A program made the translations under genes and the position numbers. 46,544 nt of DNA from an uncultured Clostridia bacterium (GTDB taxonomy: Bacteria; Bacillota; Clostridia; Christensenellales; Borkfalkiaceae): positions 1 through 46,544 of the forward strand of contig CAMWNA010000003.1 of the NCBI GenBank assembly GCA_947175515.1, in the 5' to 3' direction. This document shows, one piece after another, positions 10,966-32,787 of this stretch. The notes beneath the pieces were generated by a model. It saw only the letters and a list, made by a program, of their open reading frames with translations, had not been told where the DNA came from and did not search any database. The first letter of the stretch is position 1. Each line of letters opens with the position of its first letter.

Positions 10966-13900
10966 ATGTCCGAATTTAAAACATATATTGAGCAACAGGC
11001 GGAGCTTGCAGAAAAATTATCAATTTGTGGTGGAATAAGTTTAATAAATATTAAAAAAGCAGTAACAGAGATGTTGTCGCTTATACATAGAAACGGTTTG
11101 TTTGAAGAATACACTTCGCATACGATAGCTCATGTAGATAGAATGCTAGATATTATTGAATGGTTAATACCAGAAGATACCAAGAAGATAATGACTCATG
11201 CAGAATATTTAATGTTAACACTTGCAGTATATTTTCATGATCTAGGGATGCTGGTTAGCAAAAAGGAATTTGAAGCTAGAGAGGATTCAAGTTATAAAAA
11301 ATTTAAAGAGAAAGTAAGTAAAGGGTCTTCTGAATACACAAGTTATACTAAATGTGACGATAAATTTCTTTATCAAGAATTTGTTAGAGAGAATCATGCA
11401 AAAAGAATTAGAGCTTGGATTGAAGGTAAAAATGTTATTGATTTGGGGAACGCTGAAGAACAATGCTCCATTATAAAAGATTTACTATCTAATCTTGATA
11501 ACAAATTTAGATCTGATTTAGCTATGATTTGTGAGAGCCATCATAAAGATGACATTGATGATTTTAAGAAATATAAAATAGACTCTTGTTATGGTAGTGA
11601 TAAAAACGAAAAAGCTAATTTGAATTATGTAGCTATAATATTAAGGTGCGCAGATTTACTTCATATCACAAAAGATAGAACTCCATCTATTTCACGAAGA
11701 ATAATCAATGTTTCTAATCCTATAAGTGTTTTAGAGTGGGAAAAGCAACAAGCTGTTAAGGCTGTAAGACCGAAAAAAAATAGGAATGAAGAGGGGAATA
11801 TAGATAACACTGTTGATAAAGATACTATAGAGATTACTGCTTATTTCGATGGTGCTGAAACGGCAGAAGCTTATTTTGGGCTATCATCTTATTTGCAATA
11901 TACACAAAAAGAGTTGCAAAAATGTAATTCTATTTCTATTCATGCACAGAAGTCTGAAGGTGCTGATGGATATTTATTTCCATGGCGAAAAATCGATGAT
12001 TCGGAAATTACTGCTGTTGGGTTTGAAACAAAAAAATTGCAATTTACATTAGCTCAGGAAAATATTTTACAACTTTTGGTTGGACATACATTATATAACG
12101 ATTCCTCTGTAGTTGTTCGTGAAATAACACAAAATGCGATTGATGCAGTAAAATTACAAAATCAAATTGAGCGCAATAAAAGTAGATCCATTACTGACGG
12201 GCAAATTATAGTGAATTGGGATAAAGATAAAAGGTTATTGAGCTTTACAGATAATGGAACAGGGATGACAATAAGCGAGATTGAAAACTATCTTCTTACT
12301 GTCGGGGCATCAAAATATCGAGATGAAACTTTTATAAAAGAATTTCCTAATTTTAATTCAATAAGCCGGTTTGGAATTGGTATTTTGACTTGTTTTATGG
12401 TTGCTGATGATGTGGATATAATTACAAATTCTGAGGAAGAGACTCAAGCTAATATGATTAGCTTGAGAAAAGTTAATGGCAATTATCTATTAAAAAAAAT
12501 AGATAAGGGCAATGTGGTTAAAAACATACAGAAGCATGGGACAAGAATAGAGCTTCATATACGTAATAAAATTGAAATGGACAAATTAGAATCCGATTTA
12601 AGAAAGTGGATTGTTGTACCTGAAATTCCGGTATTCTTATCATTTGATGAAAAGAAATTAATTAGGATTGGCTATGATAAATTAAGTGATGTAATTATAG
12701 ATTATTTTAAACGTTTAAATAAGAAATTTGATAATATAAATTATAAGATTTTTGAGAAAACCCAAGGTGATGTATCAATTGCATGTGCATTAAGATATAA
12801 TAAATATTTATCTGATTGGAGTTTAATGCCAATCGATAGAGATGCGTTTTTTGAAGATGAATACCCTATAGGAACTTGTGTTGAGGGAATTCGAGTAGAG
12901 TTTACCACGCCTGGATACAGAGGAGAAACAATATTTGCTATTGCTAATATTAAGAATAGCAAATTTAAAACAAATGTTGCAAGGTCTGCATTAGAATTTG
13001 ATATCAATAATCAAATATTAAATGATATTTATTCTTGTTATAAAGATTATATTCAAGAGCAGATTGATAATTTGGAAAAAAATAATTTTTCTAAGTCTTG
13101 GGCGTTAGAGGAAGGAAATTATTTAATGATGCCTTTATTTGACTCTAGATATAATAATCAGGAATGTAGACCTATTAATATAAGCAGTTTAATTAAAAGT
13201 TTAGGAGAGTTAAAATGCCTCATATTAGAGAATGCAGGGAAAAGGGAATTTGTTGCAGCTTCAGAAGTGCATAAGCTGGATGAATTTAATATTGTTGAGT
13301 GTAAAATGGCTTATGCTATCGAGTCACTGTTTAAAGAAATAAAGAGTGAAGCGACATTAGAAAGTATAATTAATGTTGTTTGCATAGAAGATAATTTTTT
13401 GAAAGGCATTAAAAATGTAATTTGTAACTATGATCATAGTAATATTTTACATCGTTATGCTTTGAGCGGTAAAGCGGTATCTTCTATATTTGTAAATCAA
13501 ACTCATCGTAGAATTCATTTGACTTTTTCAAATAGTGCCGATATGTGGGAAAAATTTAATTTGTCATATGAATTTAATAAATATTTATATATTCCTAAAA
13601 AAGAATTTTTTATAAAAGGGCTCGATGATGAAATAGGAGTTGATTCGGCTAGTGGAATATATTTAAGAAGTGATTCTGGTTTTTGTGCTTATATTAAAGA
13701 GTCAATTTACGAATTAAAAAATAGTGTTAAAGATAATAAGTATTTAATTGATAGTTTTCTATCTACTTTATTTAGTTCTAGAATTTTGGAAAAAGTTTAC
13801 GATAAAGATTTGGATTTTGATTACACTGATATTTTTGATGAAAGATTTTCATATAGGAGAAATGATTCCTTATCGCAATTATGGTCAAAAATTGATATGG

Positions 13901-13980
13901 AAAAATTCAAATCGGAAATTTTGACAAAAAATCTTTCATTGTTTTCTATTAGCAACTGGTCAAGGAGAAATGATGAATAA
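10966..13980 (+). CDS. HD-domain plus Hsp90-like (GHKL) ATPase protein, putative conflict/defence protein
   Basis: 1004 aa; HTIAHVDRMLDIIEWL...YFHDLGML HD motifs; REITQNAIDAV, FTDNGTGM and SRFGIGILTCFMVAD ATPase motifs; AAGGAGGAATTATG start. Confidence 0.8.
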   Translation: MSEFKTYIEQQAELAEKLSICGGISLINIKKAVTEMLSLIHRNGLFEEYTSHTIAHVDRMLDIIEWLIPEDTKKIMTHAEYLMLTLAVYFHDLGMLVSKKEFEAREDSSYKKFKEKVSKGSSEYTSYTKCDDKFLYQEFVRENHAKRIRAWIEGKNVIDLGNAEEQCSIIKDLLSNLDNKFRSDLAMICESHHKDDIDDFKKYKIDSCYGSDKNEKANLNYVAIILRCADLLHITKDRTPSISRRIINVSNPISVLEWEKQQAVKAVRPKKNRNEEGNIDNTVDKDTIEITAYFDGAETAEAYFGLSSYLQYTQKELQKCNSISIHAQKSEGADGYLFPWRKIDDSEITAVGFETKKLQFTLAQENILQLLVGHTLYNDSSVVVREITQNAIDAVKLQNQIERNKSRSITDGQIIVNWDKDKRLLSFTDNGTGMTISEIENYLLTVGASKYRDETFIKEFPNFNSISRFGIGILTCFMVADDVDIITNSEEETQANMISLRKVNGNYLLKKIDKGNVVKNIQKHGTRIELHIRNKIEMDKLESDLRKWIVVPEIPVFLSFDEKKLIRIGYDKLSDVIIDYFKRLNKKFDNINYKIFEKTQGDVSIACALRYNKYLSDWSLMPIDRDAFFEDEYPIGTCVEGIRVEFTTPGYRGETIFAIANIKNSKFKTNVARSALEFDINNQILNDIYSCYKDYIQEQIDNLEKNNFSKSWALEEGNYLMMPLFDSRYNNQECRPINISSLIKSLGELKCLILENAGKREFVAASEVHKLDEFNIVECKMAYAIESLFKEIKSEATLESIINVVCIEDNFLKGIKNVICNYDHSNILHRYALSGKAVSSIFVNQTHRRIHLTFSNSADMWEKFNLSYEFNKYLYIPKKEFFIKGLDDEIGVDSASGIYLRSDSGFCAYIKESIYELKNSVKDNKYLIDSFLSTLFSSRILEKVYDKDLDFDYTDIFDERFSYRRNDSLSQLWSKIDMEKFKSEILTKNLSLFSISNWSRRNDE

Positions 13981-14795: not shown

Positions 14796-17123
14796 CTATA
14801 TACGGTTAAAAATAGAATCTACTTCATCTAATTCAGTTTTTTTATCAAGACTTTTTTCATCATCATAAAAATCATAGTCAGAATAGTTTGATAGATATGC
14901 ATCTACTGCATCCGATGCGCCATTTACCGATATTGGAATATCGTATAGAAAATCATCTGATATTATTATATCATTAGGTAAAAGGCGCAGTTGGTTTTCT
15001 ACATACTCTGTCGCTAATTCAATTATTCTATCTTGAAGTCGCTCAACTGCAGAATTCTCATCAAAATATTCTCCATCAAAAGAGTACGCACCTTCTATAC
15101 AAGGACCGATGTCCACAATAAAATCTGATATGTCGACATCCTCGAAATATACTTCTATAGCATCTTTGATTTCTTCAGTTGCTATTTCAATAAAAATTTT
15201 TCTGTCTTTAAGATTTATAATTTTTTCTTCTATAATATCAACTAAAGCAATAACGTCGTCAAATTCCAATGTGGATAACATTTCATGTATGCCGTTCTGT
15301 TCTATTAAAAATTCATTTATTCCGTAAAATTCATAAAGCTTATCGTTAAATAACTCTCTAATTATAATGTTTAATGGCATCTTTAGTATTTGTTTGATTG
15401 CGAGGCCGTCTGGATTCTTTAGGTATGAAAATATAATATCTTTGTAACGGAGATCACAAATTTTCCCTTTTGCTATGCAATACACCATGAGTGCGTGCTT
15501 TTGGCTAGTGCTTTCAAAAAACAATTTGTCCAACTTATGAGTGGTTAATAGAATAATAGCTTCTTTATAAAATTCATCCGATGTTAAAACACGCTGTAAT
15601 TGAGTTATATAAAGTGAATTTTTTATTATTGTTTGTCTTTCAATTACATTCTCTTTTAGTCTTCCTTCTATATAATCGTTGATGGAAGGATTGAGTACAG
15701 ATATTAATTGAGAACCTTTTTTATCAATAATTTTTATAAAGCTGTCAGTTAATCTAATCATTGAGGCCTCAAATTGATTTATAGTAAGGTCGATGTCTGT
15801 TTCATTGGTAATGGCATTATTAAAGCACTCAAGTAATAATTTTTTATCGACTTCTTTATCTGAAATAGAGAAGAGAGTGGATAGGAAAATTCTATCCGTT
15901 TTCTGCAGTTTTCTTTCGTACTCATCTTTCCATAGCTGTTTAGGATTATTAAGCTGTGAAATGATGTATTTAAAATAATCACTCTCACGGGTGTTTTTAT
16001 ATCTATTTGGATTGCATACGAACTCGATTAGTCTTGGATTATAATTGGAATGTTCTATTATTTTAAGATAATTCTTATCTCTTTTTATTTCTTTTAAGTA
16101 ATTTGGTTGTGAGTTATTGAAATATAGATGATTATAAAATATCTTTGCCTTTTCAACAAGTGTCATGGCGTTCATATCAATTATGAATACCTTATATTCA
16201 CCATTCTCTAAACTTTGGATAAGTTCAGGCTTTTGCTCTTTTGCTTCTTGAAATATAGTGATTCGGGAATTTAGTACAAGGAGTTTATTTTTAGACAAGT
16301 TTACATACTTGATTAGTGATAATAATTCTTCATTTTGACTGCTTTTCATTTCAAAGTAAGCTTGTCCAAAACAATCATCAACCAAAATAATTTCTTTTGT
16401 ATCAGGGGTGCGAGATAATGATTTTTTTAGTTCTTTCAAATCTGTGCTGTTAGTTGTGTATCGTACTTTGAATTCTTTTGTGGCATAGTAAAGAATTAAC
16501 ATTTTAGAAGTAATTGTTTTTCCTACGCCGGGATTTCCAGTAATAAATAATGTTTTATTATGCGAGAGACAATCTAAACATTTATCAAATACTTTTGTTT
16601 TGACAAAGAATTTTTTATCGTTATCTATATTTGATAATAGAGATTCGCAATCAATAAATGTATCATTATTACTTAGCTTTTCTAAAATCCCTATTGAATC
16701 TAACCAAAGTTTGTAATGCTTGGTTAAAATATCGTTATTCTCAGGTTTTTGTAAGAAGTCATCGATTTCAGTTAATGTTACAATATTTTTGTCTGATTCC
16801 ATAAAGTCAGCAAAAAGCATATAAATTTCTTTAACTTTTTTAGGTGAAAGTTCTTTTGAGCAACATATGTAATACTGTTTAGGACGAAGTATTTGTACTT
16901 TCTTTAATTCATTTTTTAATGACGAAATGAGTGTCTCAGTGGAGGAGTTAATGTAATGCTTAACCTGAATTACTATACTATCATTGCTCAGAGTATCAAC
17001 TAAATCAATTCCACCATCTTTTCCTCTTGCGAATCTACGTAAAGAGGTTTTGAGAATTTTTTGCATAATATCCTGACATAGGTATTCAAATTCAACATCA
17101 TTTAAATTTGAGTAGTTTAACAT
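14796..17123 (-). CDS. Mrr-like nuclease domain + STAND-type P-loop NTPase, putative antiphage effector
   Basis: Start re-assigned to MLNYSNLNDVEFEYLCQDIMQ after GGAGACACAAATG on the minus strand; GGIDLVDTLSNDSIVIQVKHY nuclease core; FITGNPGVGKTITSK Walker A; IILVDDCFG Walker B. Confidence 0.78.
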   Translation of the reverse strand: MLNYSNLNDVEFEYLCQDIMQKILKTSLRRFARGKDGGIDLVDTLSNDSIVIQVKHYINSSTETLISSLKNELKKVQILRPKQYYICCSKELSPKKVKEIYMLFADFMESDKNIVTLTEIDDFLQKPENNDILTKHYKLWLDSIGILEKLSNNDTFIDCESLLSNIDNDKKFFVKTKVFDKCLDCLSHNKTLFITGNPGVGKTITSKMLILYYATKEFKVRYTTNSTDLKELKKSLSRTPDTKEIILVDDCFGQAYFEMKSSQNEELLSLIKYVNLSKNKLLVLNSRITIFQEAKEQKPELIQSLENGEYKVFIIDMNAMTLVEKAKIFYNHLYFNNSQPNYLKEIKRDKNYLKIIEHSNYNPRLIEFVCNPNRYKNTRESDYFKYIISQLNNPKQLWKDEYERKLQKTDRIFLSTLFSISDKEVDKKLLLECFNNAITNETDIDLTINQFEASMIRLTDSFIKIIDKKGSQLISVLNPSINDYIEGRLKENVIERQTIIKNSLYITQLQRVLTSDEFYKEAIILLTTHKLDKLFFESTSQKHALMVYCIAKGKICDLRYKDIIFSYLKNPDGLAIKQILKMPLNIIIRELFNDKLYEFYGINEFLIEQNGIHEMLSTLEFDDVIALVDIIEEKIINLKDRKIFIEIATEEIKDAIEVYFEDVDISDFIVDIGPCIEGAYSFDGEYFDENSAVERLQDRIIELATEYVENQLRLLPNDIIISDDFLYDIPISVNGASDAVDAYLSNYSDYDFYDDEKSLDKKTELDEVDSIFNRI

Positions 17124-17142
17124 TTGTGTCTCCAAATTTAGC

Positions 17143-17508
17143 TTAGCTATTAGTTTCTCTGAGTAATTTAAGTACGGCTTCTTTAAGTTTAGCGTTAGCG
17201 GCAGAGGACGGATCGAAACACATCTCAATAAATTCTTGCATTTGCTCGTTGTCTTGCCAAACCTTCGGCTGGTAATCGTACAATTTGCCCTGAGGATTAT
17301 CTGTTCTTCCGAAAATATAATCAAGCGATACGTCGAAATAGTTCGCATACCATAAGAGAACTTCATTTGATACTTCAGAAATGCCGTTCTCATACCTATT
17401 AAGCGCAGATTGAGAAATGTTTCCATTTAAACTACATAATTTCATTTGGGACAGTTTGACACCTTGTCTTAAATCTCTTAATCTCTGTCCAATTATCTTA
17501 TTATCCAT
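17143..17508 (-). CDS. XRE-family HTH regulator
   Basis: 121 aa; LRDLRQGVKLSQMKLCSLNGNISQSALNRYENG; directly upstream of and co-directional with the STAND gene. Confidence 0.85.
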   Translation of the reverse strand: MDNKIIGQRLRDLRQGVKLSQMKLCSLNGNISQSALNRYENGISEVSNEVLLWYANYFDVSLDYIFGRTDNPQGKLYDYQPKVWQDNEQMQEFIEMCFDPSSAANAKLKEAVLKLLRETNS

Positions 17509-18061: not shown

Positions 18062-19282
18062 TTAATAGTCCAGCTTCTCAGCTTCCTTCAGAAAGAACTC
18101 ATCAGGTAGGTCTGCATAAGCTTTGCGGAGCTTATCAATATTATGTCCCATCCAGAACGCACGAGCAATGTTTGCTACATGGTACGTTTCACACCGCGTG
18201 TCGAACGTCGTTCTTAAATCGTATAATTTGTGAGTGGGACAGAAAGCGACCAATTTCTCACGTAAATATTTCTTATTCGGAAAGTATAGTTCCGATGTTC
18301 CTTTCAATATCTTTTTCAATCTCGGTATGATAGGTATGTATTTGTAAATGACCTTCTTTGAGTGCTGCTTTCTGCATTCGGCTTTGATGAAATCGCCTTC
18401 AATAGTGGCGGTGCGATATTCGCAAGGCCGAATTCCAGTATATAACGCTACGGCTATTGGTATAAGATATTTCGGGTTATCCTTTAAACCCTCAATCAAA
18501 GTGTTCTCTTCTTCAATAGTTAGCGCTACGCCATGTTCGCTTTCGTAACTTTCGACAATTACAAGGCGGCACGGATTCCGAGGCAATAAGCCTTGGTCGA
18601 CCGCATTTGTAAATATACAGCTTAACAACGATTTTAATTCTTTTGCAGTTTTCATTTTATCGTTGTCAACGTAATCGTCGATGTAGTCTTGAATCATATC
18701 GCTATCGATTTCCTTCAACGGTAATGATTTAAAATAAGGCTGCAAGTGATTTTTGTAGCGGTACATGTCATTTGTAAAGGTAGATTCTTTTACCAGCCGT
18801 ATGCGGTATTTATCAAAGTAGAAGGTTGCGAACTCGTGAAAGGTTGCGGGAACCTTAGGAAAGTCTTTGCGCTTATCTGCGATATTGACTTCGATTATAA
18901 ATTTTGATTTTGCTTTTTCAAGGTCATTGCTTGATACATAAATATTGTATCCGTCGCGCCGATAGCGCAACTCATAATTTGTATTACGTTTCCCGCTTGC
19001 TCGTTTGTATGCGTGTACTAAACATCCGGCTAAACGGAAAACCTTTCTAAATCTTGTCGGCATTTGTGAAATCTCCTTTTTAGTGAATTTCACAAAACCA
19101 TAGGTTACGGTTACATTTTGAATTTCGGGCCCTTTATTAAGCTCAAATTCATTGACTGCCTCTCGCTGCATGGCAGCCAGTTCTTCGGAAACCTTTTCGA
19201 TTTCCTCCTTGTTGTGTTCTCTGTCTAAGCTCAGCATCATAAGCTTTGAGCTGAGATAGAGCATTTTTTCCGATGTGTTCAT
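18062..19282 (-). CDS. int: Tyrosine recombinase/integrase
   Basis: Start chosen at MNTSEKMLYLSS behind AAGGAGG (minus strand); SAM-like domain, ALYTGIRPCEYR, YDLRTTFDTRCE, FWMGHNIDKLRKAYADL. Confidence 0.85.
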   Translation of the reverse strand: MNTSEKMLYLSSKLMMLSLDREHNKEEIEKVSEELAAMQREAVNEFELNKGPEIQNVTVTYGFVKFTKKEISQMPTRFRKVFRLAGCLVHAYKRASGKRNTNYELRYRRDGYNIYVSSNDLEKAKSKFIIEVNIADKRKDFPKVPATFHEFATFYFDKYRIRLVKESTFTNDMYRYKNHLQPYFKSLPLKEIDSDMIQDYIDDYVDNDKMKTAKELKSLLSCIFTNAVDQGLLPRNPCRLVIVESYESEHGVALTIEEENTLIEGLKDNPKYLIPIAVALYTGIRPCEYRTATIEGDFIKAECRKQHSKKVIYKYIPIIPRLKKILKGTSELYFPNKKYLREKLVAFCPTHKLYDLRTTFDTRCETYHVANIARAFWMGHNIDKLRKAYADLPDEFFLKEAEKLDY

Positions 19283-19390
19283 TCCAATGAACCTCCTTAA
19301 AGTTTTCACCGTAATGGTGTGCTTTAAGGTTAAGGGAGAACACAAAGAAAAAATCAATTGTTTTTGAGGGGTTATTTTTAATTACTTTTT

Positions 19391-19750
19391 TTATATTTTT
19401 ATATCTAGCATATTTTTCATCATTGTAATCACGGATTTTTGCGTTTCAATTCCGTATTTTTTGCCTATTTCTCTAAACAAATAAAGCATATCGTCTTCCA
19501 ACGGCGTTATGCTTTCTTTTTTTGTTTCGGACAATCCTAACGCGCGTTCCTCGGGAGTAATCTTATCTCGCCCCAAAAGATAGTCGGTTGATACTCTAAA
19601 AAAATCGGCTATCTTTAGAACTGTGCTTATGTCTGGTTCGCGTCCGCCAGTTTCGTATAATGACACCGTGCTCTCGGCTAAATCAAGTTTGGCGCCGAGC
19701 TCGCGCATCGTCAGATTGCTTTCTTTGCGTAGCTCTCTAATTCTGTTCAT
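19391..19750 (-). CDS. XRE-family repressor-like regulator
   Basis: 119 aa; LRKESNLTMRELGAKLDLAESTVSLYETGGREP; divergent from 19920. Confidence 0.88.
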   Translation of the reverse strand: MNRIRELRKESNLTMRELGAKLDLAESTVSLYETGGREPDISTVLKIADFFRVSTDYLLGRDKITPEERALGLSETKKESITPLEDDMLYLFREIGKKYGIETQKSVITMMKNMLDIKI

Positions 19751-20168: not shown

Positions 20169-21197
20169 ATGGCAAACGAAATTGCAAAGCTTAAACCCTT
20201 GCAAGAGCCTGGAGAGGTAATAGAATCCGAAACTGATGCGAAGTACGAAGTATACAAAGCTGACGGCTTATACGAGTATTCTTTGCAGGCGAACGGCAAG
20301 CCAAATAAAGCGCATGCAAGAATAACCTACACACACGGTGATATTTATGACGGCAACCTGAAGCACGGCAAGTATTCTGGGCTTGGCAGTTACCAATGGA
20401 AAGACGGTGGATTTTATGAAGGTAATTTCTCCGGCGGAAAGTTAAACGGCACAGGCAAATATGCAGCACCAAACGGCGACGTCTATGAAGGCAACTTTAA
20501 AAACAATAAGTATAACGGCGAAGGTAAGTACACTTGGGAAGATGGAAGTTCGTTTGAGGGTACCTTTAAAAACGGCCAAATGCAGAGCGGAAGATACATT
20601 GATGCGGACGGTAATGTTTATGATTGTAAGTTTACATACAAGCTCAACGGTGAACGCAAGAACGGCAGCATCAGATTAGTTCGTTTTGCAGAGAAAGAAC
20701 CGCCTAAAAACGAGAACACAGAAAAAAAAGAAACCAAGGAAAAGAAGGAAAATAAGGTCTCAAAGGAAGCCAAGGAAACTTCGAAAGATGCGGATAAAGA
20801 CGCTCCTAAAAATGATAAAGCCGAAACGAAGAAAGCCGCAGTGTCGCGCGTTAATAAAAACGGTTTAACAAGTAAAGATACAAAGCTCATTACCATAATT
20901 CGAAATTCTAAACGCGGCGCTGAATTTAAAAATCTGTATACCGGCGCATCAGGAAAAAGCGAAAGAGCTGAAAAAGATTTAATAGCCATTTTGAATTTTT
21001 TTACTAATTCAGATGCAGCACAGATACAGCGCATATTTAAGTCTTCGAAAATCTACGACGCATCAAAGGGCGACGAACGTCTGACTGATATGGTAACTGG
21101 AATTATAAAGCGCAGCAATGATTTTGTACATAGCACAAAATCAGCCGCAACGGGCCGTCAGAGCTCGGCCAGCGCTGTTAACGGTGCGGCGAGATAA
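20169..21197 (+). CDS. MORN-repeat protein with a C-terminal helical domain shared with the giant primase-like protein
   Basis: 342 aa; repeated YEGNFxxxxxNGxGKYxxxxG; lysine/glutamate-rich linker; C-terminal IIRNSKRGAEFKNLYTG...LNFFTNSDAAQIQRI. Confidence 0.8.
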   Translation: MANEIAKLKPLQEPGEVIESETDAKYEVYKADGLYEYSLQANGKPNKAHARITYTHGDIYDGNLKHGKYSGLGSYQWKDGGFYEGNFSGGKLNGTGKYAAPNGDVYEGNFKNNKYNGEGKYTWEDGSSFEGTFKNGQMQSGRYIDADGNVYDCKFTYKLNGERKNGSIRLVRFAEKEPPKNENTEKKETKEKKENKVSKEAKETSKDADKDAPKNDKAETKKAAVSRVNKNGLTSKDTKLITIIRNSKRGAEFKNLYTGASGKSERAEKDLIAILNFFTNSDAAQIQRIFKSSKIYDASKGDERLTDMVTGIIKRSNDFVHSTKSAATGRQSSASAVNGAAR

Positions 21198-21511: not shown

Positions 21512-21730
21512 AAAAACTATTATGCAAAACGAAACGGAACCTGTTACGCGTTTCAATCCATGCAACTCCGCAACCTTGCGGTGTATGCAGATGAGTTTGA
21601 ACCGCTGAACCGTGCGGATGCTATGAAACAGTTTGGCTATACTGACAGCTGTTCCATGCGTGTAATAAAGTGCACGTCGATTTCTTCAAAAGAAGATTTA
21701 CTCCGTATTACTTCGGAGGTAAAGAAATGA
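21509..21730 (+). CDS. Small uncharacterised ICE protein
   Basis: 73 aa; MKNYYAKRNGTCYAFQSMQLRNLAVYADEF; overlaps the start region of parA. Confidence 0.65.
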   Translation: MKNYYAKRNGTCYAFQSMQLRNLAVYADEFEPLNRADAMKQFGYTDSCSMRVIKCTSISSKEDLLRITSEVKK

Positions 21731-22503
21731 AAGTCTTATCACTTGTTAATCAGAAGGGCGGCGTAGCCAAGACGACGACGTCAATAGCCCTTGCAGACTA
21801 TTTCGCCCGTCATGGCAAAAAAACACTGCTTATCGATTTTGACCCTCAGGGCAGCTTAACGACCTCATTCGGCCTTGCAGATGACGCGGACAACCCTAAG
21901 GCGCTTAAGTTCCTCGCGCTCGCGCGCGGCGGTTCTGAAGCGATGCCGCATAAGCTCGCAAAAAACTTATACGTCATTACTTCAGATATTGGTCTTGAAA
22001 AAGCTAATGCATCGTTGATAACGAAGATAGGGAAAGAACGTTATCTGCGCCGTGCCGTCGATGAGCTTAACAAAAAAGAAAAGTTCGATTACGTTATCCT
22101 GGATAGCAACCCGTCATTCTCGCAATTGACGATAAACGTGCTTTATGCAAGCGATAAGGTTCTCGTACCGTTCAAGCCGGAGTTTAACTCGTATAAAGGG
22201 ATAATGCAGCTCTTCGAGAACATCGAAGAACTGAAAGCCTTGCAGCCGAATCTTGCCGTACTTGGCTTTGTTGTAACAATGGCGCGACCCGTCAAGTCGG
22301 CAGAACAGGCTATTGCCGAAATTACCGATTTCGCTAAAGACCAGAGCTGTAGGGTATTCACTCCGGCAATTCGTTTAGCGGTTGCCTGCGCGGATGCACC
22401 GTCGCACCAGAAAAGTATATATTCATATGCTCCTGACTCGAGCGTGGCCCATGACTATGAAATGCTTGGCGCGAACGTGCTTGAAGCTTTGGAGGGCATT
22501 TAA
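21727..22503 (+). CDS. parA: ParA/Soj-family ATPase
   Basis: MKVLSLVNQKGGVAKTTTSIALADYF deviant Walker A; start chosen behind GGAGGTAAAGAAATG. Confidence 0.93.
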   Translation: MKVLSLVNQKGGVAKTTTSIALADYFARHGKKTLLIDFDPQGSLTTSFGLADDADNPKALKFLALARGGSEAMPHKLAKNLYVITSDIGLEKANASLITKIGKERYLRRAVDELNKKEKFDYVILDSNPSFSQLTINVLYASDKVLVPFKPEFNSYKGIMQLFENIEELKALQPNLAVLGFVVTMARPVKSAEQAIAEITDFAKDQSCRVFTPAIRLAVACADAPSHQKSIYSYAPDSSVAHDYEMLGANVLEALEGI

Positions 22504-22740: not shown

Positions 22741-23256
22741 ATGAAAAATAAATACTATAAAGGCTTGGTAGATGATGAACCTAAAACATGGGTATATGGC
22801 ACCTTATCATCAAACAACAGCATATTTCAAGCTTATGAGCCTTCAAAGGGAAATTGCGGTATAGGAATTTTTTCGGTTGTCCCTAATTCAATCACAGAGA
22901 TTACCGAGGAGCAGTACGCTGAAGAGTTTGCAAAAGCAAGTAATCAGATTTGCGGAATTGTAAGGTCTGTAACCTCTGATGGACGAATTTGCGTACCGTC
23001 GGAGTTCAGACATAGAGCTGGAATTAAAACTGCAGGGAAAGTGGAGTTGTTTTTGACTTTAATGAAAGAAGTGATCATCTGCACATCAGAAAATAATACC
23101 AGAGACTTTGTCGGTATAGAACGTCCAGTTGCAGAAAACGGGCAAATTTCAATTCCAGTCGAATATCGCAAAGCGATAGGATTAGGTGTAGGCAATAAAG
23201 CTGAAGTTTTTCTAAATGCACAGAACGAAATAATAATCAAAACTTTAAAAACTTAA
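22741..23256 (+). CDS. Protein with tandem AbrB/SpoVT-like domains
   Basis: 171 aa; GRICVPSEFRHRAGIKTAGKVELFLTLMKEVIIC and GQISIPVEYRKAIGLGVGNKAEVFLNAQNEIIIK. Confidence 0.75.
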   Translation: MKNKYYKGLVDDEPKTWVYGTLSSNNSIFQAYEPSKGNCGIGIFSVVPNSITEITEEQYAEEFAKASNQICGIVRSVTSDGRICVPSEFRHRAGIKTAGKVELFLTLMKEVIICTSENNTRDFVGIERPVAENGQISIPVEYRKAIGLGVGNKAEVFLNAQNEIIIKTLKT

Positions 23257-23303: not shown

Positions 23304-23690
23304 ATGAACAAAGTATTTCTGATAGGAAACTTAACCAAAGATCCCGAATTGACGGAAACGTCTGCCGGTGTTGCATTATGCCGCTTTTCTATAGCGGTGA
23401 ACAGAAGCTACGTCGGCGCTAATAACGAACGTAAGACCGATTTCTTCAACTGTGTTGCCTGGCGCGGCCTTGGCGAGAACATCGCCAAATACACTTCGAA
23501 GGGCGACAAGGTGGCGGTTAACGGCTCGTTCGAGCAGGACAACTACGAAGACGCACAAGGAGTTAAGCGCACTTCATACACACTTGTTGTGCGTGATATA
23601 GAGTTTTTGACATCGCATAATTCACAATCAGACAAGGATGTAGATAAAAAGCTACAACCTGTAACTGAAGATACTGATATTCCTTTCTAA
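23304..23690 (+). CDS. ssb: Single-stranded DNA-binding protein
   Basis: 128 aa; MNKVFLIGNLTKDPELTETSAGVALCRFSIAVNR; acidic tail DTDIPF. Confidence 0.95.
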   Translation: MNKVFLIGNLTKDPELTETSAGVALCRFSIAVNRSYVGANNERKTDFFNCVAWRGLGENIAKYTSKGDKVAVNGSFEQDNYEDAQGVKRTSYTLVVRDIEFLTSHNSQSDKDVDKKLQPVTEDTDIPF

Positions 23691-23773
23691 TCAAACCACA
23701 TAGAAAATGTAATGACAAAATGTCCGTACACCGATGTACTTACATTGATGTACGGACAAACCATGGAGTTATC

Positions 23774-24220
23774 ATGTCAAAAAACGACGGCAAAAGATTT
23801 TATTGGCTTAAATTAACTCAAGACTTTTTTAAACGAAAAGATACAGACGACTCGGACGCAATACAGCTTCTTTTAAGGCAAGCTGACGGAAGCAAGTATG
23901 TTTGTATCTATTTGATGCTATGTCTTGAAAGTATAAATAAAGGTGGACTCCTTTATTATGAGTCAAACGGAATAAAAATTCCGTACACAATTGAAGATAT
24001 AAAAGCTGAGTGCAGATATTATGATCCATCTGAAATTGAATGTGCCGTAAAGCAATTTTTAGCCTTAGGACTTTTAATTACTGTTGAAATCAGTGATGGT
24101 CAACAAGCTTTTGCTTTACCAGAGGTTCCGAAATTAGTTGGGACAGAAACAGGTGCAGCTATTCGCAAAAGACTACAACGGAATAATTTGCCTCTTTTAG
24201 GGGACAATTCGGGGACTTGA
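23774..24220 (+). CDS. Phage replisome organizer N-terminal-like protein
   Basis: Start re-assigned to MSKNDGKRFYWLKLTQDFFKRKD; ends in GGGGACA repeats. Confidence 0.7.
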   Translation: MSKNDGKRFYWLKLTQDFFKRKDTDDSDAIQLLLRQADGSKYVCIYLMLCLESINKGGLLYYESNGIKIPYTIEDIKAECRYYDPSEIECAVKQFLALGLLITVEISDGQQAFALPEVPKLVGTETGAAIRKRLQRNNLPLLGDNSGT

Positions 24221-24761: not shown

Positions 24762-27700
24762 ATGGAAGATAATAAAGAATTGATAACGAGCCAGTCAGAA
24801 CACGAAAAGACTTCGGAAGAAAAGCCGGCAATAAAAAACTCCGCAACGTTTGCGGAGCAGGTGGATGCCGTTCTGAGCGGCGCGGATATGGAGAGTTCGC
24901 ATTTAGAACTGCTTAAGGTAACGCCTCCGCTTCTTCGAATGGTGGGCGTTCCTAACTTGCCTATCCTAATGACTGCACGCCACGTTAAGACTATAACGCA
25001 GGAAAGCGGAAGCGATTCCGCCAATTATCACGGTTTAGGGACAGAGATTATAAAGAAGCTGCCTGAACTGATATCAGACCCCGTGATGATTATGGATAGT
25101 TTAACACAAAATGACAGTATAGTCATTGTTACGCAAACAGTAGATAAACAATATCGCCCCGTAATCGGAGCTATAAAGCTGGATGGTATAGGTCGCCAAA
25201 AATCCGAAATGATAAGCGCGAATATTTTAACGAGTGCTTATGGACGTAATAATTTCCAGTCGTTCATCGCGCGCAATATTGAGCAAGGGACAGTTCTCTA
25301 TGCGGATAAAGAGAAAAGCCAAGCCTTGTCAGTGAACCCCGGGATACAATTTCCCGACGTTATGGCAAGCCTCAGCTTCAATACTATTATACGCAAAACT
25401 AAGGCTTTTGTCAAGAGCAAGGAAGAAAAAATCAAAGAAAATAAACCCAGTGAGAAAGAAGAGAACACAGAAAAGAAGGAGGAGAAAATGAAATTGTCTG
25501 ACCGCATTAAACGTTTCTTTGGAAGGACGAAGAGCGAGTATAAGGACGTTGCGCCGCAAATTCTTTCGAATGAAGAGTTTGCCGCGCAAAGGGAGCGTAT
25601 AGGTAAAGCCAGAGAAAAAGCTATGCTGATAGCTTCCGAAAGCGGACAACCATATGTAACGATAATGGAAAGCGATTCGGTTAAATTCAAGCCTGGCGAC
25701 GTTCTGTCGTTAGTTGAAGCTGAGAAAAGCTTTACGGAAGAAAACAAAGAGGTTAAAGCTCTTGATGCCGGCGACTATAAAACACTGTTCACAATAGATT
25801 CCGTGTATAAGGGCAAAATGAATAGTGCAGACTGTGTATACCGTATTGGTGCAGAGAACGGCGGAATTGCGGAACAGCTTGCGGAAACGGCAAATTCAAA
25901 TCATGACGTCAATTTGCTCAATTATTCAAAGTACTTGCAAAAGCATCTTGAGCTCGAAGGTATGGTAGATAAAGCCATTGCGGCCAAGCTGCCCTTACAA
26001 AAGCAATACGACGTGCAAGGTTACGCCTTATTCGTAGGCAATGACTTGAACGCATCGCAGAATCCGGAGAGCTTTGAATTTCCGCCGCTTGAAATAGAAC
26101 ACAAAGAAAAAATAATCAATACTGAAAATCTGCCGCACCGTGCGTTTGCCGACGGTCCGATACCGCAGTCGGAGCAAACGTCGAGTAATTCTGCTGAGCG
26201 CCGAGCAACAGATTTTCACGACAAAGTTTTTGGCGTGCGTGAGGAAATGGTAAAAAGCCTTATCAGATACATAGAACAAAGCCCTAAGCAATGGGAAGCT
26301 GGTTGGAATAATATTGCCGGCACGGCGCCTGAAAACGGTAAAACAGGTACACCGTATCGCGGTTTAAACTTGCTTTACTTAACGTTTACGGCGATGCAAA
26401 AAGGGTATACCGACCCTCGCTGGGTAACGTTTAATCAGGCCAAAGAACTCGGAGCGAGTGTAAAGAAGGGTGAGAAGTCTTCGCCCATTATATTCTACGA
26501 ATTATACGACCGAAACACGAAAAAGTCTTACGACAGCAATACGACTAAAAATATGACCGACGAACAGAAGGATGCGTATATGAAGGAGAATGTTTACGCT
26601 GTCCTTAAATATTCGAACGTCTTTAATGCTTCACAATGTCATAACTTCCCAGAGCGTGACACCGCGTCGATGCAGATGAAGGAAGAAGAACGTGCAAAGC
26701 AGAACGCATTAATCGAATCTATTATTTCGAATAGTGCAGCGCCCGTTCTCCATGATGGGGGCAACGAAGCTTTCTATTCGCCCATGCAGGATAAAATACA
26801 TTTGCCGCCGCTCGAAGCTTTCAATACGATGCAGGATTATTATGCAACCGCGTTGCATGAAATTGCTCACTCCACGGGCCATGAAAGCCGCTTAAACCGT
26901 GATTTAAGCGGTAGCAGGCATTCGTCGGCATACGCAAAGGAAGAACTCCGCGCTGAGCTTGCTTGTGTATTTATGCAGGTGGAGCAGGGTTTAAAGCTTG
27001 ACGGTAAACACTTCTCAAACCATGCAGCATATCTGAACAGTTGGCTTAACCAAGTTAAGGATGACCCCCAGATATTTTATGCGGCCGCGCGAGATGCGGA
27101 GAAAATCTCGGACTACGTTGCCGAGAACTATCTGCATGCAGCGCAGACTGCTGAGCTCGAAGGCGAAGCAGTTCACTCGAATACAGCCGCAGTAGTTCAG
27201 GGAAACACAGAAAAAAAAGAAGCTTTAAATGCGTCAAAAATCAATTTAACTGAAAAGCGTTTGAAAGACTATGCAGATATATTGCGTAGGAACGATTTAG
27301 AGGTCGGTAATACCGCTCAGTCGGACGAATATTACATAAACCAAGCCCGAGAACAAATAAAAGCTTATGAGCAGACAGACGAATATAGAGGAGCAGTGAG
27401 AGCAGATTATCCGCGCGACTTCGAAGACGAGCTCACCGAAACGTTGCTTGACGAGGCTGAGGCTCACGTCGGGACCTTGAATGGAGAACACAAAGAAGAA
27501 AAAAGCTTTGAGGATACAGTGCAAGAGCTTGCAACATCGGAGGGATATAGCTTTACCGAAAATGCGGAACTTGTGCATCAGTATTCAAAGAATATTTTTG
27601 AAACTGAGCTCAAAGCGCGCGATGTTTTCTCTGACAATAATATGCAAAAACAGCCAGCGTTTTCGAAATTTTCAACTGCACAAATAGAACACATTGCTAA

Positions 27701-30578
27701 AAATTATATGTATTACAACAACACCTATGCTTTCAACTTGGCAAAAATAATGAAAGCAGAGCGTGAAAAATATGAATATCAGGCTTTAAAAGCCATTTTG
27801 CAACAAGGTAATGACGCGCCCGAGTATATCCGAATTGATGGGTATAATTATTTGTTCAGAACAGAAGATTTGACCCAGAAATACGGCGGAAAAATTGAGA
27901 ACGGGCAAATAGTTGTTACACCTGAGCTTGAAAATTCATTTTTTAAACTTAATGAAAAATACAACGAACAGCAAGGAGAACACAAAGAAAAAATGAATTC
28001 AGTGCCTCATTATACAATTGATTTCAAATTAAATTGTTCAAATGAAATGCTTTTAAGCAATGAATTAAAGCAATTAGGCTTTAAAGTTGATAGAGATGCT
28101 TATAATCGAAACGAGCAAAGAGATGGTACAGCACTCGAAAATCGAATAGACCGTTGGGTGGACGAAATTAATTATGTGGGAGCCGAGGGCAAGTCAATTG
28201 AAGGTTGGTATGGAAAAACTTTTAACGGAATTATGTTAGAGTCAACCGATATTACAGGCTTTACGACGTCTGGCTTAAGTCTTAAAGAAGTGCAAGCCGT
28301 AGCCGATGCGGTGCAGAGCTTTGGCGTTAACGTTACAGTAAAAGAGATTCCGTCGCAGCATCGTATTGTTCCAGAACAGAAGCAAGAGACTTCGAACAAC
28401 GGCGCCGCGGCGAAAGCTCCACTGGTTGTCAATTTGTTTGCAGGACCGGGCGCAGGAAAAACCACGGCCGCACTGGAGCTTACGGCAGCGCTGAAGAAAG
28501 AGGGGTACAACGTAGAGTATGTTTCCGAGTTCGCCAAGGAGCTCGTGCTCGAGGGCAGAACTGAAGAGCTGAAGGACCAGGAGTTTGTAACGAACGAGCA
28601 GTACCATAGAATAGACCGTTTACGTAACTCAGGGGTTGAGATTATCGTAACGGATTCCCCAGTACTCCTCGGCAAAGTATACGGCGAAGGGAAGAACAGC
28701 GCGGAGTACGATAAGCAAATACTCGATTATCACAACAGCTTCGAGAACTTTAACCTTATGGTTAAGCGCGGCGAAACTTTCCAAGCAGAAGGGCGAGTGC
28801 ATAATCTTGAGCAATCAAAAGAGCTCGATACAAAGATAACGTCTATGTTACGCAGTAACCAAATATTTTACGGTAACTATCACCACGGTGATATAGACAA
28901 AACTATCGACCGTATAAATGCAACGTACGCTCGCTTGTACGGAGAAAAGCAAGCGGATAATAAAAATGTATCCGTAAATACGTTCTGCACTGATTTTGGC
29001 GGTGAATATCTGTATTTCCGTGTCAATGATGGACTATCGATTGAGGATGTTTGTAAAGGTTACGCCGAGGACCCTGAAGATGGCTTTGGTTATAACTTTG
29101 GGCAAGAGATATCAGAAAGCCAGTACAATGAAATCAGAAATACAAGCAAAGGCTTTAATATCGATTTTCTTGACGATATAAATGCTTTTACGATAACTCA
29201 GGATGGAAATGTTTTAGAGAGCGGCTATTTGTACGAGGATTTAGTTTTGAAGTATCAAGAACCTGAAGCGCAAGAAGAATCAGCCGAAAAGACCGTTGGA
29301 GAGGAGCTAACGAATAAAACCACGTGGAGCAAGATAAATCTTCCAGACGGCGCTGTCGGAAACGAGTACGGCAAAACCACTCTTGTTAAAATGCCGCAGA
29401 GTGGCGAATATGCTCATTTTGGTGTTTTCGTTTCTACACAATATCTCAGGCAGAATTCAAAGACAGGCAAGTGGCAGCTTAACGTCGGCGATAAATTCAC
29501 GTACCGCTTAACAAACGACGGGCGGCAGGTCGAACTGACGGGCCAAGAACTCAAGGATAGCTTTGCCGGGGTGCTTATCGGAAAAACTCCCGAGCGTGTG
29601 GCGCCGAGCCGTAAAAATCTGAGAGTGCTCGACAATCTTGAAAAGAACGTTCCAAAAGAACTTCGTGTGCATGCCAATTGGTGTGTTTACCGCACCTATA
29701 AGGAAACGGATAAGGAAAAGAAGGGTAAAGTCATCAAGTCGGCAGTAACGGGAGAGGGGGCAAGCCCTAAGAACTCGGCAGACTGGACCGACTTCGATAC
29801 AGCGATGAAATATGCACGTGAAAACAACTTCGAAGGCCTTGCGTTCGTGTTGGAACAAAATAGCGGCATAACGTGCATCGATTTGGATAAGTGCATCAAG
29901 AACGCGGAGACGGGGGAAATGAAGGAACGCGCGACCAAGCTAATTGAAGAGCTGAAAGGCACGTACATGGAGCGCAGCACGTCTGGGAACGGCGTACATA
30001 TTTTCATTAAGGACGACATCCTTAAAGGCGGCAAGTATAAAGACTCCTCGGTAAGTGAGGAGAAGGGCGACCTCGAAGTCTTCGATAATCAGCGCATTAT
30101 ATCGATGACCGGTGATATGTTTTCTGAAACGAACACCTTGACGAGAGCCGGCAGCAGTGCAACCGTTTATCTTCGTCAGGAGCTCGGCGAAAAACAGCAG
30201 ACTCACCGTTCACCATCTTCCAACGTAAGGACCGGCTATAAAGCCGGCAGCGACCGAGAGGTAGTAGAGCGCATCCGCCGTAGCAAGCGCGCAGGCGACT
30301 TCGAGGATCTTTATACCGGTCACGGTATTACTGGGAACGCGTCGATTGATGACATGAAGCTTGCTAATATTCTCGCTTTCTTCACTAACGGTGATGCCGC
30401 TCAGTGCATGAGAATTATGCGTGAGGCGTCAACGTACCGTTCTGACAAACCCGAATCTTATTATAATCACACCATATCCAAGGCAATCGACACATTAACT
30501 ATCCGCCCATCGTACGGCGCCGCGCAGGGCGCTTCAGCAAGCAATAAGCGGACAGCAGGAAACGGTGCAGCGCAGTAA
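24762..30578 (+). CDS. Giant multidomain ICE protein: ArdC-like antirestriction/zincin + P-loop NTPase + PrimPol-like domain + C-terminal helical domain
   Basis: 1938 aa; TGTPYRGLNLLYL and HEIAHSTGHESRL (ArdC/zincin); NLFAGPGAGKTTAALEL; HANWCVYR...ITCIDLDKC...YMERSTSGNGVHIF (PrimPol-like); C-terminal RSKRAGDFEDLYTG...LAFFTNGDAAQ. Confidence 0.82.
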   Translation: MEDNKELITSQSEHEKTSEEKPAIKNSATFAEQVDAVLSGADMESSHLELLKVTPPLLRMVGVPNLPILMTARHVKTITQESGSDSANYHGLGTEIIKKLPELISDPVMIMDSLTQNDSIVIVTQTVDKQYRPVIGAIKLDGIGRQKSEMISANILTSAYGRNNFQSFIARNIEQGTVLYADKEKSQALSVNPGIQFPDVMASLSFNTIIRKTKAFVKSKEEKIKENKPSEKEENTEKKEEKMKLSDRIKRFFGRTKSEYKDVAPQILSNEEFAAQRERIGKAREKAMLIASESGQPYVTIMESDSVKFKPGDVLSLVEAEKSFTEENKEVKALDAGDYKTLFTIDSVYKGKMNSADCVYRIGAENGGIAEQLAETANSNHDVNLLNYSKYLQKHLELEGMVDKAIAAKLPLQKQYDVQGYALFVGNDLNASQNPESFEFPPLEIEHKEKIINTENLPHRAFADGPIPQSEQTSSNSAERRATDFHDKVFGVREEMVKSLIRYIEQSPKQWEAGWNNIAGTAPENGKTGTPYRGLNLLYLTFTAMQKGYTDPRWVTFNQAKELGASVKKGEKSSPIIFYELYDRNTKKSYDSNTTKNMTDEQKDAYMKENVYAVLKYSNVFNASQCHNFPERDTASMQMKEEERAKQNALIESIISNSAAPVLHDGGNEAFYSPMQDKIHLPPLEAFNTMQDYYATALHEIAHSTGHESRLNRDLSGSRHSSAYAKEELRAELACVFMQVEQGLKLDGKHFSNHAAYLNSWLNQVKDDPQIFYAAARDAEKISDYVAENYLHAAQTAELEGEAVHSNTAAVVQGNTEKKEALNASKINLTEKRLKDYADILRRNDLEVGNTAQSDEYYINQAREQIKAYEQTDEYRGAVRADYPRDFEDELTETLLDEAEAHVGTLNGEHKEEKSFEDTVQELATSEGYSFTENAELVHQYSKNIFETELKARDVFSDNNMQKQPAFSKFSTAQIEHIAKNYMYYNNTYAFNLAKIMKAEREKYEYQALKAILQQGNDAPEYIRIDGYNYLFRTEDLTQKYGGKIENGQIVVTPELENSFFKLNEKYNEQQGEHKEKMNSVPHYTIDFKLNCSNEMLLSNELKQLGFKVDRDAYNRNEQRDGTALENRIDRWVDEINYVGAEGKSIEGWYGKTFNGIMLESTDITGFTTSGLSLKEVQAVADAVQSFGVNVTVKEIPSQHRIVPEQKQETSNNGAAAKAPLVVNLFAGPGAGKTTAALELTAALKKEGYNVEYVSEFAKELVLEGRTEELKDQEFVTNEQYHRIDRLRNSGVEIIVTDSPVLLGKVYGEGKNSAEYDKQILDYHNSFENFNLMVKRGETFQAEGRVHNLEQSKELDTKITSMLRSNQIFYGNYHHGDIDKTIDRINATYARLYGEKQADNKNVSVNTFCTDFGGEYLYFRVNDGLSIEDVCKGYAEDPEDGFGYNFGQEISESQYNEIRNTSKGFNIDFLDDINAFTITQDGNVLESGYLYEDLVLKYQEPEAQEESAEKTVGEELTNKTTWSKINLPDGAVGNEYGKTTLVKMPQSGEYAHFGVFVSTQYLRQNSKTGKWQLNVGDKFTYRLTNDGRQVELTGQELKDSFAGVLIGKTPERVAPSRKNLRVLDNLEKNVPKELRVHANWCVYRTYKETDKEKKGKVIKSAVTGEGASPKNSADWTDFDTAMKYARENNFEGLAFVLEQNSGITCIDLDKCIKNAETGEMKERATKLIEELKGTYMERSTSGNGVHIFIKDDILKGGKYKDSSVSEEKGDLEVFDNQRIISMTGDMFSETNTLTRAGSSATVYLRQELGEKQQTHRSPSSNVRTGYKAGSDREVVERIRRSKRAGDFEDLYTGHGITGNASIDDMKLANILAFFTNGDAAQCMRIMREASTYRSDKPESYYNHTISKAIDTLTIRPSYGAAQGASASNKRTAGNGAAQ

Positions 30579-30971: not shown

Positions 30972-31460
30972 GTGAAAAATAAACAAGAGTTCGAAAAAGT
31001 CAAAAACGAATTCAAAATTCGTCTCTATGACACGGAAGTAATCAAATCAATTGCCGAGCTGATGCAGACGGGCAAGTTCGAAAGCTATAACGACTTGCTT
31101 GGCTATGCAATCAGTTTCGGCATTGAGAAGATTTATCTGGAGTTCGGGAAAAAGCGGGCGCTCACCAATCCGTTCGAAGTTGACATGCCGATGGAAGAGC
31201 GATTAAACCTTATCGACAGGAAACTTGCAGAAGCTCGGATTATGCAGGAGGATATGTTTATTCTGTCAAACGGCCTTGAAATTTTAATTTCGACCGTTTA
31301 CAACACGCTGCGAGCCGAAGCTGCAGGCGAAGAAGTTACGCCGGAACTCATAGATAGCGGTTTCTTCTCAACGCTACCGGAATTCTACCGCGTTATCAAA
31401 GATACCATGATTGAGCGCTCAAAAAAGAAAACACAGAAGGAAAAGAAGAAAAATGTCTAA
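30972..31460 (+). CDS. MobC-like mobilization accessory protein
   Basis: 162 aa; GTG start behind GGAG; RHH-like N-terminus; overlaps the relaxase start. Confidence 0.6.
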   Translation: MKNKQEFEKVKNEFKIRLYDTEVIKSIAELMQTGKFESYNDLLGYAISFGIEKIYLEFGKKRALTNPFEVDMPMEERLNLIDRKLAEARIMQEDMFILSNGLEILISTVYNTLRAEAAGEEVTPELIDSGFFSTLPEFYRVIKDTMIERSKKKTQKEKKKNV

Positions 31461-32787
31461 GGTAGTATTTAACGTCAGTTACACGAACGCGCAGCCGCCG
31501 GTGAACTTTACGGGCAAAGCACGTGCGGATTACATTGCGCAACGCAAGTTCTATAATTTGACGGCGGATTACAATTACTTTGAGTATTCACTTAACGGCC
31601 AAAAAGTCGTTAAGAACGCTAATGCGGAGCATTATTTTACCCGTGAAGGCACGAACACCGGGCTTTTTAACATGGACGGCGTTATATCCGAAGAGAAAAA
31701 GGCCGAGTTAAAAAGTCTGTTAAAAGATACGCAAAGCCCTATCTGGCACGGTTTCATCAGCTTCGATGAGGAAACCAGCCTCGGCTTCCAGACGCAGGAG
31801 AACTGCATAAAGTTTCTGCGCCAGACTTTCGGCGAGTTTTTAAGGCGCGGCGGTTTCAGAAAAAATAACGTAGAGCTTTACTGTTCGTTGCATGACGATA
31901 CCGATAATCGCCATATTCATTTCGCTTTCTTTGAAAGAGAGCCTCTGCACTGTAATAAAAACGGTGTGGCCGGGCAGTTTAGGCAAGGTTTTATTCAGAA
32001 CAAGATAATTGATAATTATCTCGTATCAGCGAATATGCACCTTTCTGAACACGGCGCCGAATATTACACCGCACGTGACGAGGCAGTAAGCGAGCTTAAC
32101 AAAATCCGCGAAAATCATGCAGTTGGCGGCACGTTCTTCACCACCGACCGCGGCCGTAATCTCGAGCTTAACCTTGCCTTTGACAAGCTTATTGCAAAAT
32201 TGCCTAAGACGGGCCGTTTACAGTACAACGCAAAAGAGATGGCAGAGCTTCGGACTGAAATCGACAAGCTTGCGGCGCTGCTCATAAAGTCGGATAAGCG
32301 TGCGGAAGCTGCGCATCTCAAGATGCTTAAACAGTTTGCGCGTGTAGAAAACGAGGTCCGCGAGCTGGCCTTGGATAACAAGCTCGCCTATATGAACGAC
32401 CGCCGAATGACGAAGGAAGAGCTGCAAACCGTAATGAACGAAGATACACGCAATCAGAAGATGCCCGTTAAATATCTTGACATGCAGAACGTTGACTATT
32501 TCGAACGGCTGAAAGCGGATTATGCGGCAAGGCTCGGAAATATCGTTCTTGGTATTTGTAAGGACATAAAACGTACTGACAAAATGTCCGTACACCGTAA
32601 GGCTTACGTGAACGATATTCGCAGAAAAGTCGAGGCCAAGCATAAACGCATAAAGCGCGGCGACTTTTTCCGAACGGCGAGGGAAGTTCTTGCGGCCGTT
32701 TGCTCAACCGATAGCGCGAACTTCCTCAAATCGTTCAAGCAAATCGAAGCCGAAATTGCTTTCGAGCAAGTTGATGGCAGAATCTGA
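31453..32787 (+). CDS. MobP-like relaxase
   Basis: Start re-assigned to MSKVVFNVSYTNAQPP; IWHGFISFDEE and DDTDNRHIHFAFFE metal-binding motif. Confidence 0.8.
   Translation: MSKVVFNVSYTNAQPPVNFTGKARADYIAQRKFYNLTADYNYFEYSLNGQKVVKNANAEHYFTREGTNTGLFNMDGVISEEKKAELKSLLKDTQSPIWHGFISFDEETSLGFQTQENCIKFLRQTFGEFLRRGGFRKNNVELYCSLHDDTDNRHIHFAFFEREPLHCNKNGVAGQFRQGFIQNKIIDNYLVSANMHLSEHGAEYYTARDEAVSELNKIRENHAVGGTFFTTDRGRNLELNLAFDKLIAKLPKTGRLQYNAKEMAELRTEIDKLAALLIKSDKRAEAAHLKMLKQFARVENEVRELALDNKLAYMNDRRMTKEELQTVMNEDTRNQKMPVKYLDMQNVDYFERLKADYAARLGNIVLGICKDIKRTDKMSVHRKAYVNDIRRKVEAKHKRIKRGDFFRTAREVLAAVCSTDSANFLKSFKQIEAEIAFEQVDGRI

Follow-up and report, generated by a model that had tools for sequence, protein, structure and literature searches.

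A MORN-repeat protein (P0001), encoded within the window (the whole stretch of 46,544 nucleotides analyzed here), carries at its C-terminus a primase helix-bundle domain (HBD) that is detached from any polymerase. Judging from its residues at the nucleotide site, this HBD most likely no longer primes, and we propose, with a probability of about 45%, that it has been reused as a docking module that would tie the MORN scaffold to the DNA-processing machinery of an integrative conjugative element. HBDs without a primase are carried by at least four kinds of protein, this one included, a diversity that was overlooked in the initial annotation of this DNA.

The MORN-HBD Gene Belongs to an Integrative Conjugative Element

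The window, a complete contig from a MAG of 1.69 Mb, holds an integrative conjugative element encoding an integrase, a MobL relaxase, a VirD4-type coupling protein, a TraE/VirB4 ATPase, a single-stranded DNA-binding protein (SSB), ParA, and a replisome-organiser-like protein. The MORN-HBD gene is located 3.6 kb upstream of the gene encoding P0002, a giant protein with a PrimPol domain.

18062–19357, − strand: tyrosine integrase (PF14659, 5.2e-11; PF22022, 8.2e-9)
19391–19750, − strand: HTH (Xre-like) regulator, divergent from the MORN-HBD gene (by eye from the translation)
20169–21197, + strand: MORN-HBD protein P0001, 342 aa (ORF, Pfam, BLASTP, AF2)
21670–22503, + strand: ParA-family ATPase, encoded by the first sizeable gene past MORN-HBD, here and in the ortholog contig (translation; synteny with G403:C190)
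23304–23690, + strand: SSB with a DIPF acidic tip (by eye from the translation)
23720–24220, + strand: replisome-organiser-like protein (PF09681, 2.1e-9)
24762–30578, + strand: polyvalent protein P0002, 1938 aa, with MuF_C, LPD25, ArdcN, MPTase-PolyVal, P-loop kinase-like, PrimPol, and HBD domains (Pfam, PHROGs)
31411–32787, + strand: MobL relaxase (PF18555, 7.5e-19)
32802–35075, + strand: VirD4/TraG coupling protein (PF02534, 3.8e-49)
42595–45237, + strand: TraE/VirB4-type ATPase (PF19044, 7.3e-19)

Four other genes of the window were also recorded. A 171-aa protein with an AbrB/MazE-like domain (22741–23256, + strand; PF04014, 2.1e-8) is encoded between ParA and the SSB, and a protein with Mrr_cat and nSTAND3 domains (14796–17426, − strand) matched the PADLOC candidate defence family PDC-S73 (1.1e-120). 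The gene at 10966–13980 (+ strand) encodes an HD-CE and HSP90-like ATPase protein, a by-eye homologue of which is found beside an AbiEii-HBD gene in locus L225 (4143–7091). Finally, a predicted surface protein of 1796 aa, which weakly matches Ig-like domains and has a membrane segment at its C-terminus, is encoded in the transfer region (35072–40462, + strand), and several related elements encode proteins of similar size at this position.

P0001 Combines MORN Repeats with a C-Terminal HBD

In P0001, a disordered, charged linker joins the MORN-repeat domain to the C-terminal HBD, which is followed by a tail.

20241–20633, + strand: MORN domain, residues 25–155 (PF02493, 9.6e-18; AF2 pLDDT about 95; Foldseek and VIA)
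20634–20867, + strand: Lys/Glu-rich linker, residues 156–233, mostly predicted disordered
20868–21128, + strand: detached HBD, residues 234–320 (PF22763, 3.5e-4; five helices; Asp at the R249-equivalent position)
21129–21194, + strand: disordered Ser/Ala/Gly-rich tail ending in NGAAR (pLDDT about 40; tail statistics)

Three MORN repeats scored above the Pfam cut-off, and the AF2 model of P0001, built on a 31-row alignment, displayed a run of beta-hairpins longer than these three repeats. With its tandem 23-residue repeats and its MORN beta-hairpin fold, P0001 is a MORN-repeat protein, and this half of the model resembles MORN1 and radial-spoke MORN proteins with Z-scores of up to 15.8 (Foldseek, VIA). 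The linker was modeled with pLDDT values mostly between 40 and 60 (residues 160–230).

In the C-terminal part, residues 271–296 matched the Pfam family "NrS-1 polymerase HBD domain" with 20.8 bits, below the cut-off of 27.9, and residues 186–318 matched a PHROG primase family (phrog_13901, 2.1e-8). The AF2 model placed helices at residues 235–245, 250–258, 265–279, 283–291, and 302–326 with a pLDDT of about 96, ahead of the disordered tail. Since the PDB search with the whole model returned MORN folds alone among the matches listed, the HBD of P0001 was assigned from its sequence, its helix pattern, and its pLDDT. No PrimPol catalytic domain was found upstream of the HBD by Pfam, by PHROGs, or in the HBD alignment, in agreement with the earlier description of a MORN protein lacking a polymerase. 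The protein also has no toxin domain, in contrast to the AbiEii and CptIN carriers described below.

The C-Termini of P0001 and P0002 Are Homologous

The alignment of the two C-termini, first drawn by eye, proved correct. BLASTP aligned P0001 with P0002 up to their final residues (NGAAR and NGAAQ, respectively) with an E-value of 9e-12 and 31% over 131 aa, and the Smith–Waterman score of 133 far exceeded those of 2000 shuffles (mean 28, maximum 53; z of 21).

29643–30137, + strand: PrimPol catalytic domain of P0002, about residues 1628–1792 (phrog_8643, 2.1e-18; phrog_1829, 3.7e-55)
30249–30521, + strand: HBD of P0002, with intact R249 and Y261 equivalents (PF22763, 3.5e-7; AF2; Z to 7rr4 and 3m1m)

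Both C-termini had been likened to the HBD of NrS-1-type primases, and our data agree with this view. PF22763 was found in both, below threshold in P0001 and above it in P0002 (30.4 bits for a cut-off of 27.9). The C-terminus of P0002 was predicted by AF2 to form five helices in the same order as those of P0001, so that the two predictions yielded a similar helix series and not unrelated folds. Compared with NrS-1 PrimPol structures, the model of the P0002 HBD reached a Foldseek probability of 1.00 and VIA Z-scores of 10.5–10.9 (10.9 for 7rr4); the scores were 8.0 for the pRN1 primase (3m1m), 7.5 for its HBD–DNA–NTP complex (9rtj), 7.0 for RepB', and 5.5 for PriX. The PHROG primase families span residues 1628–1911 of P0002, and its HBD therefore sits after the PrimPol domain, as previously described.

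A recent duplication of the P0002 HBD as the source of the P0001 HBD was considered and rejected: in the HBD tree, the P0002 HBD grouped with that of genome G439, and the P0001 HBD with those of its ortholog and of a CptIN toxin. In G439, an apparent open frame of 25,069 aa (G439:C4) corresponded to a masked run of N and was discarded.

The Fusion Is Conserved in a Second Genome

The MORN-HBD fusion and its position before ParA are both conserved. An ortholog of 320 aa, 57% identical across both domains, was found in another MAG of the genus (G403:C190; JAAUYS010000190.1, "Clostridia bacterium isolate Mgla_MAG_30-bin_22"); as it is full-length, this protein shows that the fusion is not a chimera of assembly. 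Its gene also precedes ParA, inside which the contig stops. The MORN and HBD portions are both conserved between the two proteins, and the linker is variable. No P0002-like PrimPol was found in the genome of the ortholog, the assembly of which is 83% complete.

A pattern scan of genome contigs with P0001 alone gave no relatives, and a two-sequence MORN-HBD profile of genome contigs returned locus L089 and unrelated MORN proteins. No further MORN-HBD protein was recognized among the matches from four overlapping sets of genomes (301 from the family, 396 from the order, 391 from the class, and 93 from the genus), and none was found in plasmid collections, phage collections, or viral contigs. P0001 and its ortholog are the two MORN-HBD proteins found.

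Anti-Restriction Proteins and Toxins Also Carry Detached HBDs

In the class sample outside the order, HBDs were found almost entirely in longer frames, mostly of 500–890 aa, as expected for PrimPol-HBD-helicase proteins. Elements of the order encode ArdC proteins of 475–572 aa (ArdcN and MPTase) with a C-terminal HBD and without PrimPol. These ArdC-HBD genes are kept across many genera, and in at least 20 genomes a PrimPol-HBD gene is found no more than about 4 kb away. In locus L217 (6075–6893; L210/L217), ArdcN is fused to half an HBD, apparently because a polyvalent protein lost an internal segment.

AbiEii nucleotidyltransferase toxins (type IV toxin–antitoxin systems) ending in an HBD were detected in four genomes (PF08843, up to 8.7e-32). 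They form two subfamilies, the second of which is encoded directly 3' of a 207-aa AbiEi-like gene and, in genome G1021, near an integrase resembling that of the window.

L084, 5473–6942: AbiEii-HBD
L085, 5490–6959: AbiEii-HBD
L083, 3626–4516: AbiEii-HBD
L221, 244–1626: AbiEii-HBD
L225, 1836–3188: AbiEii-HBD
L226, 3804–5153: AbiEii-HBD

A CptIN endoribonuclease toxin (type III toxin–antitoxin system) with a C-terminal detached HBD was found in genome G217 (L079, 10299–11252; NF047359, 4.9e-37; PDB 4rmo, 1.4e-11). Its gene adjoins T4SS genes in an element that has ArdC but no PrimPol, and this genome, 93% complete, yielded no HBD match other than CptIN-HBD and no PrimPol-HBD. Two HD-domain-like proteins (L055, L056) gave weak HBD matches, which we attributed to chance and left out.

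The HBD tree contained two separate detached groups, ArdC with AbiEii (support 100/98) and MORN with CptIN (96/93); the tree was based on 109 columns, and its long branches make the latter grouping unsure.

Detached HBDs Have Changed at Positions Linked to Priming

We compared 145 aligned HBDs, 112 attached to PrimPol and 33 detached, using NrS-1 numbering through a HMMER alignment to 6a9w/6k9a. The D220-equivalent is Asp in 111 of the 112 attached HBDs versus 2 of the 33 detached ones, 27 of which have Glu. Arg occupies the R249-equivalent position in 110/112 attached versus 22/33 detached HBDs, and Asp is found there in none of the attached but in eight of the detached HBDs (both MORN proteins, CptIN, three AbiEii, and two ArdC). 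The Y261-equivalent is Tyr in all attached HBDs (112/112) versus 20/33. Fisher tests gave p-values of about 1e-6 or lower for these differences, the relatedness of the sequences being ignored. Most ArdC-HBDs retain Arg and Tyr at the R249 and Y261 sites, and P0002 has Arg and Tyr there. P0001 has Asp, Arg, and Glu at the positions equivalent to R249, Y261, and D220, respectively; its ortholog also has Asp at the first and kept the two others. The net charge of the MORN HBDs is +8 and +5; PrimPol HBDs average +0.3.

In the pRN1 primase, both the template and the pair of NTPs that start the primer are bound by the HBD (PMC11009956). In NrS-1 PrimPol, the substitutions R249D, K251D, and Y261A strongly weakened priming and raised the processivity of the full-length polymerase (PMC8718748). 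Because its nucleotide site is changed, with the Asp of R249D in both MORN proteins, the MORN HBD is very probably not a priming domain.

These same mutants, which prime poorly and polymerize longer products, are in line with a regulatory role in trans: a priming-dead HBD could replace the cis HBD on the PrimPol catalytic domain or at priming sites, lowering primer synthesis and favouring extension. Both MORN HBDs carry the equivalent of R249D, and the PrimPol giant is encoded nearby, 3.6 kb downstream. However, NTP binding aids template recognition (PMC11009956), so a dead HBD would be a poor competitor for priming sites, and most ArdC-HBDs retain the Arg and Tyr. Moreover, the search detected no PrimPol-HBD in the genomes of some primase-less carriers (G217), and a decoy of the neighbouring primase, as suggested in the initial annotation, is thus not a general explanation. 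We consider such a role improbable.

It is quite improbable that the detached HBDs are evolutionary relics left on unrelated genes by recombination, without a selected role. The L210/L217 protein is a plain product of internal deletion that would fit this idea, but the conservation of the MORN and HBD portions around a variable linker in the 57% identical ortholog, the maintenance of ArdC-HBD over many genera, and the consistent residue changes in two detached groups argue against it.

The Detached HBD May Act as a Docking Module

Docking is our preferred reading. The product of the MORN-HBD gene is an accessory protein of the integrative conjugative element in which the HBD, separated from the polymerase and deprived of residues handling the starting nucleotides, may recruit a MORN protein-interaction scaffold to the replication or transfer nucleoprotein of the element (ssDNA, the PrimPol giant, SSB, the relaxase). 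The same module may deliver ArdC anti-restriction proteins to the place where they act, and may do so for toxins in some elements. The MORN repeats, by analogy with known MORN structures, may dimerize or hold a further partner. We infer docking from the use of the HBD by ArdC beside PrimPol-HBD genes, from the basic charge of the MORN HBDs, and from the binding of proteins by MORN repeats; the presence of this domain on anti-restriction proteins and toxins as well makes it look like a docking module that has been reused and not like a one-off event. The docking target may differ between carriers, because no PrimPol-HBD was detectable in the genome that encodes CptIN-HBD.

The MORN repeats could alternatively bind lipids and keep the replication complex at the membrane, as the name of the repeat and early work on junctophilins would suggest. 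This membrane-adaptor role, also put forward earlier, is weakened by a re-evaluation in which TbMORN1 bound neither lipids nor vesicles and MORN repeats were classed as protein–protein modules (PMC7725318); furthermore, no transmembrane segment is evident in the P0001 sequence. Membrane anchoring thus seems highly improbable.

The HBD, together with a basic Gly/Ser/Asn-rich tail, could also be a co-transfer tag recognized by the coupling protein, directly or via ssDNA; PrimPol, ArdC, and the MORN protein would then enter the recipient with the DNA. Compared with the remaining proteins of these loci, the tails of HBD proteins are enriched in G/S/N/T (0.49 and 0.42 versus 0.23; p of about 1e-10 to 1e-12), are more basic, and have K/R in the last two residues in 82–88% versus 38%, and those of ArdC-HBDs share a recurrent xN[AT]K[STG] tip. 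Nevertheless, relaxases, which are known T4SS substrates, do not have such a tail composition overall (GSNT 0.29, p of 0.10), some AbiEii-HBD genes have chromosomal-looking neighbours (L084), and the tail is of low complexity and differs from family to family; we regard a tag of this kind as unlikely. The ArdC-HBD tip, which follows a variable tail (e.g., L212, 6308–7978; L223, 5337–7046) and only roughly conforms to its motif, could be a signal.

Docking of the MORN scaffold could be one instance of a wider role, in which the detached HBD would be a general recruitment or co-transfer module, a C-terminal tag gathering unrelated cargo (an anti-restriction protease, toxins, a MORN scaffold) on the single strand being transferred or on its PrimPol, nucleotide handling having been swapped for docking. 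This generalization is tentative. The recruitment of anti-restriction, priming, and other establishment proteins to the incoming strand is a little-understood step of conjugation, particularly in Gram-positive bacteria, and a small module that a MORN scaffold has in common with a primase, ArdC, and toxins offers a concrete candidate for it. In addition, detached HBDs are natural variants without the priming residues and could help to separate nucleotide handling from other HBD functions.

Comparison with Known Systems

HBD and PriCT domains, PriX and PriL, and polyvalent proteins are already known (PMC5862659; PMC5512222). Within the open-access literature searched, no paper joined helix bundle domain, antirestriction, and primase, or MORN repeat, conjugative, and Firmicutes.

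P0002, a T4SS-element protein with at least two conflict or DNA-processing domains, is a polyvalent protein. With its ArdcN, MPTase, LPD25, and PrimPol domains, it is one of the polyvalent proteins of Tn1549-like conjugative elements described by Iyer et al. 2017 (PMC5512222), and elements of this kind also harbour the ArdC-HBD and MORN-HBD genes. P0001, with its two domains, is an accessory protein of the element that encodes P0002 and not itself a typical polyvalent protein. The main text of that study does not mention MORN and mentions PriCT only as an associate of PrimPol, and a detached HBD common to several genes was not seen in it.

AbiEii (type IV) and CptIN (type III) toxins constitute the N-terminal domains of other detached-HBD carriers, and the profile families of these toxins are devoid of such a C-terminal HBD. 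The HBDs of the phage NrS-1 primase-polymerase (PF22763; 6a9w, 6k9a, 7rr4) and of pRN1 (3m1m, 9rtj) are like that of the MORN protein in helix order and, with a sub-threshold match in P0001, in sequence profile, but the MORN protein has no PrimPol ahead of its HBD, and its R249 site is altered. The HBD is related to PriCT-1/PriCT-2, to PriX, and to the C-terminal domain of PriL, which share its helical-bundle fold class (PMC5862659). PriX and PriL provide a precedent for an HBD residing on a separate polypeptide of a primase; they are, however, subunits of working primases, whereas the MORN HBD has lost the Arg of the nucleotide site and is joined to a MORN scaffold.
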